Both the position numbers and the translations under genes were made by a program. Shown in pieces: positions 30,975 through 34,045 of a DNA stretch of 64,000 nucleotides (the first letter of the stretch is position 1; each line of letters opens with the position of its first letter). The stretch lies in NCBI GenBank assembly GCA_023701135.1, contig JAMPXP010000002.1, forward strand, positions 62,001 through 126,000, in the 5' to 3' direction. This stretch comes from Desulfobacula sp. Lineage in GTDB: Bacteria; Desulfobacterota; Desulfobacteria; Desulfobacterales; Desulfobacteraceae. Under the pieces are notes generated by a model. The model did not search any database, was not told where the DNA came from, and worked only from the letters and a program-made list of their open reading frames with translations.

Positions 30975-32012
30975 TCAACAGAAAATGAAGGTTTTCAAAA
31001 TGAATTCATTTAGTTCATGAAAACCGATTTTTTCAACCCTGGCCGTTCCAATTTCTTCAAGAAAAACATAAAATAGGTCTTTTCCCTCTTTTTTTTTATC
31101 CTTACCGGCAGCGTTGATGACGGCACCCGGATCATAATTCAAACCCGTTGGAAGATTGAGATCCTGTAATAAGGCCATAATTCTTGAAACATCTTTTTTG
31201 GAAATCATCCCTCGTTCCCGGGAAAAGCGTGCAGCGGCAACCATGCCCATGGAAACAGCCCTGCCATGCCCTGCTCTTTCAATCTTTTCAATGGCATGGC
31301 CGATGGTGTGGCCGAAATTCAGCTTTCGCCTTTCACCTGCTTCCTTTTCATCCCGTTGCACAATCCCGGATTTGATTTTCACGCAGTCGGCAACCAGTCT
31401 GTAAATCGTTTGATCATCCAGAGACAAGGCTTTTTTCCGGTTGGTTTCAATGAATTCAAACAAGGCTTTGTCACAGATCAGGGCATGCTTGACAATTTCC
31501 GCAAAACCGTTTGAAATTTCGGGTCCGGGCAGGGTCTGTAAGAGGTCCAGGTCACAGATGACAAATTCCGGCTGGTTAAAGACGCCGACCATATTTTTAT
31601 AGGCATCCAGGTTGACTCCGTTTTTCCCGCCCACACTGGCATCCACCTGGGACAGAAGCGATGTGGAGACAAATCCGAATTTTATTCCCCTTAAAAAGAC
31701 AGAGGCAACAAACCCGGTGATATCGGAAACAATCCCCCCGCCTATGCCGACGATAAAGCTTGACCGGTCGCAGGAATAACGGATCAGTTCCTTTAATATG
31801 AATTCAACGCTGGAAAGCGTTTTTATCTCTTCTCCGGTTCCAATGGTAATGACGGGAAGATCCGGGAACTCGTTTCCATAATATTTTTTTATGTTTTCAT
31901 CGGTGATGATGACGGTGCGGGATTCGGGCAGGTAGTTCCCAAGATTTTTAAGGTGTTCCCCCACATGGATGGAAGAGGTTCCGAGTTTGCCTTTAATATG
32001 AATGGTTTCCAT
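30975..32012 (-). CDS. aroB: 3-dehydroquinate synthase
   Basis: Second step of the shikimate pathway: DAHP to 3-dehydroquinate, NAD- and metal-dependent. 345 residues with VGIGGGIVSDITGF (NAD loop), STSLLSQVDASVGGKNGVN, EIVKHALI and NFGHTIGHAIE (zinc-ligand His). Its ATG overlaps the aroF stop (TAATG), so both are controlled by the upstream attenuator. Confidence 0.94.
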   Translation of the reverse strand: METIHIKGKLGTSSIHVGEHLKNLGNYLPESRTVIITDENIKKYYGNEFPDLPVITIGTGEEIKTLSSVEFILKELIRYSCDRSSFIVGIGGGIVSDITGFVASVFLRGIKFGFVSTSLLSQVDASVGGKNGVNLDAYKNMVGVFNQPEFVICDLDLLQTLPGPEISNGFAEIVKHALICDKALFEFIETNRKKALSLDDQTIYRLVADCVKIKSGIVQRDEKEAGERRKLNFGHTIGHAIEKIERAGHGRAVSMGMVAAARFSRERGMISKKDVSRIMALLQDLNLPTGLNYDPGAVINAAGKDKKKEGKDLFYVFLEEIGTARVEKIGFHELNEFILKTFIFC

Positions 32013-33022
32013 TAGTTCTTTCCAACAATGGCATGGATGGCCTTCATTTTTTCCATGACGGTTTTGAATTGTTCGGGATACAAGGACTGGGCTCCGTCAC
32101 TCAAGGCTTCTTCGGGCTTGTTATGAACTTCTATCATGATGCCGTCCACACCAAAGGCGGCGCAGGCAAAAGCAAGTGAAATGACCTGTTCTCTGACCCC
32201 GGCGGCATGGCTGGGATCCACAATAACGGGAAGGTGGCTTTCTTTTTTAACGGCTGACACAACCGTAAGGTCCAGCGTGTTCCGGCTGTGCCTGACAAAG
32301 GTCCTGACCCCTCTTTCACAGAGAATGACCTGGTTATTGCCTTCTTCCATAATATATTCGGCAGCCATAAGCCATTCCTGGAGCAAAGCGGACATTCCTC
32401 TCTTCAGGATGACGGGCCTCGGGGATTTTCCGGCCCTCCGCAACAGACTGAAATTTTGCATGTTTCGAGCCCCGATCTGGATGATATCGGCATATTCTTC
32501 AACGAGATCGAAGGTTTCAACATCCATGGCTTCGGTTACAACCGGGAGCCCCGTTTCTTTTCTTGCTTTTGCCAATAATTCCAGGCCGTTTTTTCCAAGG
32601 CCCTGGAAAGAATAGGGAGACGTCCTGGGTTTAAAGGCCCCTCCCCTTAGCAATGCGGCACCGGCATCTTTGACGGAATTGGCAATGGACAGGATCTGGT
32701 CTTCACTTTCAACCGCACAGGGTCCGGCAATCACAGGCAGGCTTCCATTGCCGAAGACAGCATCGCCAACCCTGATGCAGGTATTTTCCTGCTTAAATTC
32801 CCGGCTGACAAGCTTATATGGTTTTGTCACCGGAATGACCTCCTTAACACCATCAAGACCCTGGAAATGATTGGCATCGACGGAACCGGTATTGTGCAGA
32901 ATCCCGATGGAAATCCTTTCTCCCCCAGGTATGGGGCGGGCTGTATAGCCTCTGTTTTCAATCGCATTTACAAGAGCCTTAACTGTTTCTTCACTCGCGC
33001 CTTTTTGCATTACAACCAGCAT
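32012..33022 (-). CDS. aroF: 3-deoxy-7-phosphoheptulonate (DAHP) synthase, ferredoxin-like-domain type
   Basis: First step of aromatic amino acid synthesis, from PEP and erythrose-4-phosphate. 336 residues: N-terminal ferredoxin-like domain (1-~85, MLVVMQKGASEETVKAL), the allosteric module of this class, then the barrel with VIAGPCAVES, RGGAFKPRTSPYSFQG, ARNMQN, KRG, RGVRTF and VDPSHAAG. GGAGG lies before the ATG. Regulation is visible: a Phe leader attenuator begins 44 bases upstream, and the N-terminal domain could add feedback inhibition. Confidence 0.93.
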   Translation of the reverse strand: MLVVMQKGASEETVKALVNAIENRGYTARPIPGGERISIGILHNTGSVDANHFQGLDGVKEVIPVTKPYKLVSREFKQENTCIRVGDAVFGNGSLPVIAGPCAVESEDQILSIANSVKDAGAALLRGGAFKPRTSPYSFQGLGKNGLELLAKARKETGLPVVTEAMDVETFDLVEEYADIIQIGARNMQNFSLLRRAGKSPRPVILKRGMSALLQEWLMAAEYIMEEGNNQVILCERGVRTFVRHSRNTLDLTVVSAVKKESHLPVIVDPSHAAGVREQVISLAFACAAFGVDGIMIEVHNKPEEALSDGAQSLYPEQFKTVMEKMKAIHAIVGKN

Positions 33023-33065
33023 TTTTTCCTCCGTTTGGATTTGTATCAGTATTCCCTCTTTTGAG

Positions 33066-33100
33066 CAATAAAAAAGGCTGCGGCATGTTGGTGCAGCCTT
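33066..33100 (-). terminator. Attenuator terminator (hairpin 3:4) before aroF
   Basis: On the minus strand AAGGCTGC (33091-33100 region) pairs with GCAGCCTT (33074-33081), then TTTTTTATT. The same AAGGCTGCAC can instead pair with GTGCAGCCTT at 33110-33119. It lies 44 bases before the aroF ATG. Confidence 0.85.
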
Positions 33101-33127
33101 GTCGTAAAAAAGGCTGCACGTTCCGGC
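33091..33127 (-). promoter_or_regulatory. Antiterminator hairpin (2:3) of aroF attenuator
   Basis: GTGCAGCCTT (33110-33119) pairs perfectly with AAGGCTGCAC (33091-33100), a 10-bp stem with a 9-base loop. It excludes the terminator. Segment 2 extends to GCCGGAACG (33119-33127), which instead pairs with segment 1 CGTTCCGGC (33207-33215). Confidence 0.8.
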
Positions 33128-33218
33128 AACCTATGTCATCATTTTTATGGATTAATCAGGTCGGGCCGTTGAAGCAGTGCTTTGCCATCGCCAGAGCGGC
33201 AACCCCGCCGGAACGGCG

Positions 33219-33242
33219 TCATAAGAAAAAGAACATTCGCAT
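33219..33242 (-). CDS. Phe-rich leader peptide MRMFFFL of the aroF attenuator
   Basis: A seven-codon frame ATG CGA ATG TTC TTT TTC TTA TGA. Three consecutive Phe codons end four bases before the first attenuator segment, so a ribosome stalled for Phe-tRNA would cover segment 1. The design parallels the pheA leader of E. coli. The leader's Shine-Dalgarno is weak (AGAAACGAT). Confidence 0.75.
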   Translation of the reverse strand: MRMFFFL

Positions 33243-33279
33243 ATCGTTTCTATGTATAGTAACATCATGATAGGGTCGT

Positions 33280-33307
33280 ATTATAAATTAATAATTTTCT
33301 TTGTCAA
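33280..33307 (-). promoter_or_regulatory. Consensus sigma70 promoter of aroF-aroB
   Basis: On the minus strand TTGACA (33302-33307), a 16-base spacer and TATAAT (33280-33285): both elements are perfect consensus. A start near 33273 places the leader peptide about 30 bases downstream. Confidence 0.88.
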
Positions 33308-33388
33308 TAAAAAAATGAACTCGAAAAATTACCATTTGATTTTAACCGTTCATCAGGCTAAAGTTTTTTATAAAAGGAAACGAACCGG

Positions 33389-34045
33389 ATGGATATGAAA
33401 ATAAGTGTCATCCTGGCAGATGATCATGCCATTATCCGGGAAGGCTTGAAAAGCCTCCTGGAAAGAAGAGGAATAATCGTTTCAGCGATTGCAAAAAACG
33501 GACGGGAAGCTATTGAATCGGCAATTCTGCATCGGCCCGATGTCGTGATCATGGATATTGCCATGCCGGATCTCAACGGCGTGGAAGCGACGGCCGCCAT
33601 CCGATGCGAGGTCCCTCATACTAAGATCATCGGATTGTCCATGCACTCGGGCAAACATATTATTGATAAGATGTTTGCCTCCGGAGCCTCCGGATATATC
33701 CTGAAAGAATCCGCTTTTGAAGAGCTGTATGACGCCATACAGGAGGTTCTCAAGGGCAGGTTTTATCTGACCCCTTCCATTGCCAGGATGTATGTTGATT
33801 CCGAAGAAAATGAATTTTATTCCCTTGAGGATATTTCAAAATCCAAGGATATTTCAAAAAAAGAACGGGAAGTTCTTCAGTTGGTTGCCGAAGGATTAAA
33901 GACAAGGGATATTGCCCAGAGATTGAATCTGAGTGTCAAGACCGTGGAAAGCCATCGACGGAATATAATGAAAAAACTCAGTATTTTTACAATAGCAGGA
34001 CTGACCAAATTTGCCATTCAGGAAGGAATTATTGCCATTGAATAA
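33389..34045 (+). CDS. NarL/FixJ-type response regulator
   Basis: 218 residues. Receiver with acidic pair at 11-12 (ADDHAIIREGL) and phospho-acceptor Asp56 in VVIMDIAMPDLNG; Lys in YILKES. The C-terminal LuxR-type helix-turn-helix lies at about 150-212 (KKEREVLQLVAEGLKTRDIAQRL, SVKTVESHRRNIMKKL). A DNA-binding regulator. The nearest kinase, 118 bp downstream on the same strand, is an HDFNN hybrid kinase, so pairing is not certain. Confidence 0.9.
   Translation: MDMKISVILADDHAIIREGLKSLLERRGIIVSAIAKNGREAIESAILHRPDVVIMDIAMPDLNGVEATAAIRCEVPHTKIIGLSMHSGKHIIDKMFASGASGYILKESAFEELYDAIQEVLKGRFYLTPSIARMYVDSEENEFYSLEDISKSKDISKKEREVLQLVAEGLKTRDIAQRLNLSVKTVESHRRNIMKKLSIFTIAGLTKFAIQEGIIAIE

Follow-up and report, generated by a model that had tools for sequence, protein, structure and literature searches.

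A very probable tryptophan attenuator with tandem terminators in the aroF-aroB leader of a Desulfobacula genome

The aroF-aroB operon analysed here lies on the reverse strand of a 64,000-nucleotide stretch of a 4.8 Mb Desulfobacula genome (the window, to which all coordinates refer unless a contig is named). By domain match, aroF (32012..33022, -) encodes a DAHP synthase with an N-terminal ferredoxin-like domain, and aroB (30975..32012, -), encoding 3-dehydroquinate synthase, comes directly after it. The nearest named match of this AroF is 97% identical and belongs to a Desulfobacula MAG (L004). A sigma-70 type promoter was recognised in the upstream sequence (33280..33307, -): TTGACA (33307-33302) and TATAAT (33285-33280) are separated by a 16 nt spacer and match at 12 of 12 positions, as stated in the first-pass annotation of this DNA. 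TTGACA is present 5' of the leader in all 22 regions scanned. The leader contains an ORF of 38 codons (MMLLYIETICECSFSYDAVPAGLPLWRWQSTASTARPD; 33152..33268, -; stop TAA at 33154-33152), recognised by its conservation across relatives, in which codons 26 (33191..33193, -) and 28 (33185..33187, -) specify Trp. There is no room for a Shine-Dalgarno site before its start and the 5'UTR is probably very short, so that this ORF would need near-leaderless initiation. The first-pass annotation, which had proposed as leader peptide the short ORF MRMFFFL (33219..33242, -), missed this Trp ORF in another frame, together with a hairpin followed by a U-run (33132-33106) and a palindrome (33264-33245).

Six RNA segments can be delineated in the leader. 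Segment 1' (GGGTTGCCG; 33197..33205, -) can pair with segment X (CGGCCCGACCT; 33158..33168, -), which lies 3' of the Trp codons and which, from folding, would pair with segment A upon ribosome stalling. Segment A (AGGTTGCCGG; 33123..33132, -) was found by hairpin listing and folding, and forms terminator 1 with segment B and its U-run (33106..33119, -; U-run at 33111-33106). Segment B (GTGCAGCCTT, 33119-33110) can also pair with segment C (AAGGCTGCAC; 33091..33100, -), and this B:C helix would be the antiterminator of terminator 2, formed by C and by segment D with its U-run (33070..33081, -); C and D were placed by sequence and folding. In the window, both the A:B and the C:D hairpins are directly followed by six T; the first U-run is weak in some relatives (L005, L032). 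The leader fold has a z score of -2.31 relative to shuffled sequences, and an equally good fold occurred in 5 of 200 shuffles. Each of the three pairings proposed in the first-pass annotation is exact in the window, namely CGTTCCGGC (33215-33207) with GCCGGAACG (33127-33119), GTGCAGCCTT with AAGGCTGCAC, and AAGGCTGC with GCAGCCTT, the last followed by TTTTTT (33075-33070). B:C is kept in relatives. The pairing of the segment 1 of that annotation (33215-33207) is mismatched already in L004; this segment also sits 5' of the Trp codons, and was rejected as a switch element.

Of 80 aroF loci kept, 78 had their upstream sequence read, as did the window (79 regions; L013 and L080 were never included). 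Clusters of at least three Trp within five codons of a short ORF, and Phe clusters likewise, were searched in 75 of these regions (L039, L052, L065 and L058 being left out) and in 20 shuffles. Trp-codon clusters were found in 27 of the 75 regions against a shuffle mean of 0.2 and a maximum of 1, and Phe-codon clusters in 16 against a mean of 9.6 and a maximum of 14. A cluster of three Trp is missing from 48 regions, and the leader of the window, with two Trp codons only, falls outside the 27 positive ones. Phe clusters thus arise readily by chance in these sequences, and MRMFFFL was classed as a chance ORF outside the leader frame. In two cultured relatives, the leader carries WRWW (Desulforhabdus sp. 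TSK, L047) or a single Trp codon (Desulfospira joergensenii DSM 10085, L040). We then aligned 31 upstream regions, window included, hand-picked from the 79. Those with a complete leader (21) make up the close set; among the other ten, two have a damaged leader (L014, L015), one a shortened aroF (L039) and seven no Trp leader (L018, L023, L024, L031, L033, L035, L079). All 21 close leaders, which are not phylogenetically independent, have an open Trp ORF with one to four Trp codons located at leader codons 21-35. An ORF containing FFF exists in a single close leader, that of the window; the first-pass annotation had counted the disappearance of Phe codons from close relatives among the findings that would refute it, and the FFF ORF is indeed missing from the other 20. 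Only one Trp codon is found in the leader of the nearest relative, L004. With two in the window, Trp control may thus be eroding, and this lineage seems to be losing its leader Trp codons. In L014, the leader and the palindrome are absent and TTGACA is joined straight to segment A, by a real deletion or an assembly error.

The consequences of ribosome position were evaluated by folding, with the ribosome edge placed 13 nt past the A-site codon and X:A called formed at 4 or more expected pairs. Full-length equilibrium folding gave B:C in every ribosome state of the window and favoured X:A in only 6 of the 21 close leaders for a ribosome at the first Trp codon, and in 3 of 21 for one at the last. 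The model consequently needs co-transcriptional kinetics, i.e. an order of folding, and partial transcripts were folded because the full-length calculation failed to separate the states in most relatives. In transcripts ending before B, X:A forms in 21 of 21 leaders when the ribosome occupies the first Trp codon, in 20 of 21 when it occupies the last, in 11 of 21 when it stands 9 nt further, and in 0 of 21 at the stop codon, this last value being partly obtained by construction because X is then covered by the ribosome. Once B is made, the expected pairs of X:A and A:B in the window are 11.3 and 0.0 on the first Trp codon, 8.9 and 0.8 on the second, and 0.0 and 8.6 at the stop of the Trp ORF. 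For MRMFFFL, placing the ribosome on either the first or the third of its Phe codons, or on its stop, leaves A:B at 0.0 and X:A at 5.6-6.3; the termination decision is therefore unchanged, and the switching of the RNA by a Phe-stalled ribosome, as claimed in the first-pass annotation, is not reproduced. In these three positions its segment 1 pairing has 2.5, 6.2 and 0.0 pairs, respectively. Without any ribosome, X:A forms in 14 of the 21 close leaders (window: X:A 5.2, A:B 0.8). The protector 1':X is therefore needed there, yet it is the weakest part of the scheme, with p<0.05 against shuffles in 4 of 21 leaders only, and p 0.40 in the window.

Compared with pairings to shuffled partners, X:A was better in 15 of the 21 close leaders at p<0.05, and did not reach this level in six (L004, L005, L012, L022, L027, L066). 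When partners were swapped among species, none of 2000 permutations reached the own-partner mean energy of X:A, B:C or C:D, and the same test gave p 0.007 for A:B and p 0.024 for A:D, a control pairing that mere terminator duplication would also create (three p values output as 0.000 in the pairing-energy swap analysis were set to 0.0017). Since a MAFFT alignment of the terminators misplaced some segments, pair counts were taken on anchored segments, over 21 leaders and eight positions (168 cells). The count for B:C is 162, a value reached by 0 of 2000 shuffles, and B:C is the sole helix whose count lies above all of them. Neither A:B (153 of 168; reached by 792 of 2000) nor C:D (140; 287 of 2000) exceeds shuffles, and the control A:D, with 140 of 168, was reached by 11 of 2000. 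B:C is also stronger than C:D in 14 close leaders, equal in 2 and weaker in 5 (p 0.013).

Taken with the Trp codons, these data point with high confidence to a Trp-specific, ribosome-mediated transcription attenuator controlling aroF-aroB. The ORF, codon conservation, pairings, B:C conservation, ribosome-position folding and palindrome distribution were computed in silico, and from these we infer the steps of translation, stalling, termination and TrpR binding. The transcript would start a few bases 5' of the 38-codon ORF carrying Trp at codons 26 and 28. If Trp-tRNA is plentiful, translation should proceed to the stop codon, where the ribosome would cover X; A would then pair with B and RNA polymerase would stop at terminator 1, any polymerase getting past it being stopped at terminator 2 (C:D). 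When Trp is short, the ribosome would stall on the Trp codons and leave X free just beyond its leading edge. Free X would pair with A, and B, thus released, would pair with C once C is made; D would then remain unpaired and transcription could run into aroF-aroB. The palindrome at the leader start would add a probable operator of a TrpR-family repressor common to trpE. The leader is thus most likely a real attenuator whose signal is Trp, the Phe assignment being wrong: the type of control, the B:C antiterminator and the C:D terminator of the first-pass annotation are retained, whereas its amino acid and its peptide are not. As for the coupling of two terminators, it might leak less than a single one.

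The same leader could be explained by two independent tandem terminators, the complementarity of B and C being a by-product of terminator duplication. Indeed, A is similar to C, and B to D. In a more distant aroF group, 12 of 13 members have a C:D stronger than their B:C, and C:D by energy also beats all 2000 partner swaps. The excess of B:C over the control A:D is moreover found in only 13 of 21 close leaders, which is not significant (p 0.10), and in 11 of 19 Phe leaders (see below). We nevertheless consider this explanation unlikely. The anchored pair count of B:C (162 of 168) lies above those of C:D and A:D (140 each) and is the only one beyond all shuffles; B:C exceeds A:D in 10 of 13 distant aroF leaders and in 8 of 8 trpE leaders; and four relatives (L016, L019, L021, L027) keep B:C at -12.5 to -16.5 kcal/mol with a C:D decayed to -4.8 to -7.6 kcal/mol.

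The palindrome TGTTACTATACATAGAAACG (33245..33264, no strand assigned; consensus TGTTTCTATATATAGAAACA) spans the opening codons of the leader ORF, and this overlap could account for the conservation of its initial MMFLYIET. The possibility that MMFLYIET acts as an arrest peptide was set aside, as these codons share their DNA with the palindrome, which is found again 5' of the trpE promoter. Two further sites with one mismatch exist in the host genome. The first (L114:1501-1520) lies just upstream of the -35 element of trpE (L114:3-1235), whose leader, MKNLITKNKGRFNWWWQSWIWSLLPQGFFFR, is a Trp leader with tandem terminators; the second, on contig C24, is flanked by genes for a histidine kinase and an OmpA-like protein, neither of them an aromatic gene. 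The site is thus located upstream of -35 at trpE and downstream of -10 at aroF. Among 15 further palindrome regions from the genus, 12 are upstream of trpE (the L155 and L165 sites were placed by a palindrome scan of the genus and not by the trpE-region pattern, and L162, a non-trpE region, has only 401 bases). In the family, a site with at most one mismatch was found in 40 of 86 genomes, as compared to 1 of 86 for a reversed control pattern.

The host genome encodes a TrpR-family protein of 89 aa (L127:1489-1758) that matches PF01371 above its cut-off. Its best NCBIfam match is TIGR01321 (TrpR), with a score of 53.9 for a cut-off of 67.25, and the second, YerC/YecD, is also below cut-off. In the genus, 16 genomes have the palindrome at aroF or trpE, and 14 of these carry such a gene, as compared to none of the 10 others (Fisher p 1.2e-5, a value that one clade may drive). 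No trpE was found in 15 palindrome-like regions inspected from nine of these ten genomes. Upstream of trpR in 17 other genomes, we found a strong site in two (G018, G003) and a weaker one in a third (G008), above all shuffles, and none upstream of the trpR of the host genome itself. The palindrome at aroF and trpE is therefore probably the operator of a TrpR-family repressor, judging from its recurrence at trpE and its association with the TrpR gene, and aroF-aroB would probably be under both a repressor and an attenuator, each responding to Trp. Eight genus members (G001, G004, G012, G015, G017, G019, G022, G023) have neither the TrpR gene nor the aroF palindrome, a joint loss; in these, the AroF match starts at residue 26-109, the N-terminal domain being missing or divergent.

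Regulation of aroF by this palindrome and a TrpR-like repressor alone, the leader being a relic in the lineage of the window, appears quite improbable. It would agree with the decrease of Trp codons to two in the window and one in L004, and with the seven relatives without leader or hairpins, which keep TTGACA and, 42-43 nt further, a strong palindrome. However, the window preserves the ORF, X:A, B:C and the two U-runs, and two relatives (L032, L076) carry a Trp attenuator without palindrome, indicating that the RNA layer can stand alone and, together with the seven leaderless relatives, that the two layers are separable. The seven relatives are mostly Desulfotignum, and the spacing from TTGACA to the palindrome is unchanged in them.

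The host genome encodes its second DAHP synthase as a fusion protein with prephenate dehydratase and ACT domains. The region 5' of the fusion gene (L002:1241-1450, on contig C4 of G000) contains an ORF, MNKTAYAGIFSFGRFFFRSVHPV, and two tandem terminators. In a set of 21 such regions, the Phe-run leader is found in 18 of 20 relatives (in the variant form FFCFF in L207), the exceptions being L218 and L219. Of these 21 regions, 18 were usable for ribosome-position folding. Before B is made, X:A forms in 18 of 18 when the ribosome occupies the first Phe codon of the run, and hardly forms when it is at the stop codon (3.9 pairs or fewer); with B present, A:B is favoured by equilibrium folding whatever the ribosome state. 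The Phe run, the tandem terminators and the X:A pairing on the first Phe indicate that this genome has a Phe attenuator of the same plan at the Phe-branch enzyme. The division of DAHP synthase control appears to be made here by two RNA attenuators in one genome, aroF-aroB most likely answering to Trp and the second enzyme bearing the Phe leader. A Phe-specific attenuator at aroF, acting through MRMFFFL, is hardly credible: three Phe codons do lie in a short ORF between promoter and terminators, and segment 1 does pair with GCCGGAACG more at the third Phe codon than at the stop, but the FFF ORF is missing from 20 of 21 related leaders, X:A stays at 5.2-6.3 and A:B at 0.8 or less once B is made whether the ribosome is on the Phe ORF or absent, and the conserved Phe leader sits at the other DAHP synthase.

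The tandem arrangement, with complementarity between B and C, recurs in 13 of 21 distant aroF regions (mostly with GGACCGTGGG-type stems), in 8 of 13 trpE regions and in 19 of 21 fusion-gene regions. The mean B:C formed by a leader's own segments was stronger than the pairing of B with a C taken from a different leader set, B of aroF with C of trpE being the single exception; the stem sequences of the four sets largely differ, but those of the close aroF and trpE leaders are common. These observations raise the possibility, to which we give even chances, that Desulfobacterota use a relay attenuator, in which the strand freed from the first tandem terminator becomes the antiterminator of the second, and that this plan recurs in four leader sets and uses RNA to apportion the control of DAHP synthases to Trp and Phe, a TrpR-like repressor being added on the Trp half.

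Like the E. coli trp leader, the aroF leader combines Trp codons in a short ORF, mutually exclusive hairpins and an intrinsic terminator. The E. coli trp operon is additionally repressed by TrpR, as is probable here, and its leader has 14 codons. Here, in contrast, the operon is that of a DAHP synthase, and the leader has 38 codons, almost no 5'UTR, six segments and two hairpins with U-runs. The Rfam Trp_leader family is RF00513 (PMC4046766, available parts); it gave no match up to E 10 in 32900-33400, where two other Rfam matches at the leader were weak, unrelated and below gathering threshold. In the his operon attenuator of E. coli and Salmonella, as described in the accessible part of PMC10989985, default hairpins AB, CD and EF compete with BC and DE. 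The equivalents of BC, CD, DE and EF would be X:A, A:B, B:C and C:D, respectively, and that of AB would be 1':X, which is significant in only 4 of 21 leaders. The aroF leader differs from it by its Trp instead of His codons, by a U-run after the middle default hairpin and by the palindrome over the leader start.

Phe attenuation of a DAHP synthase gene had been called unusual in the first-pass annotation, but a precedent exists in C. glutamicum, where, from the available sections of PMC11802643 and PMC4046766, aroR-aroF has a leader peptide attenuator 5' of the DAHP synthase gene; this Phe-Tyr-Phe leader responds to Phe, and belongs to an unrelated phylum. Attenuators were also predicted before DAHP synthase clusters in other organisms, for example at aroA-tyrA in Vibrio and at an aro supraoperon in Enterococcus faecalis (PMC1173090, in part). 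A near case, in the portion of PMC3937554 consulted, is the Simkania trp operon, which contains a DAHP synthase gene. In the accessible parts of the open-access literature searched, we found no DAHP synthase described as being under a Trp attenuator. In E. coli, feedback inhibition and repressors divide the three DAHP synthases among amino acids (PMC5343134, PMC11802643, accessible parts). According to the part of PMC5343134 consulted, TrpR of gammaproteobacteria regulates trpR and trpE, and in some lineages its targets include DAHP synthase genes. That regulon concerns eight gammaproteobacterial lineages, whereas here a divergent TrpR-like protein would act in Desulfobacterota on another palindrome; Trp attenuation and a probable TrpR regulon would thereby extend to this phylum. 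More than one attenuating element per leader is described, in the available text of PMC3641672, for Salmonella mgtCBR, with two ORFs, different signals and no intrinsic terminators, instead of one ORF and two coupled intrinsic terminators here.

A further conserved stretch, TATTGCTCAAA..GAATACTGATACAAA, lies between terminator 2 and the aroF ribosome site (33070-33040, -) and is kept across relatives, partly even in those without the leader. It could be an internal promoter or a 5'UTR element.
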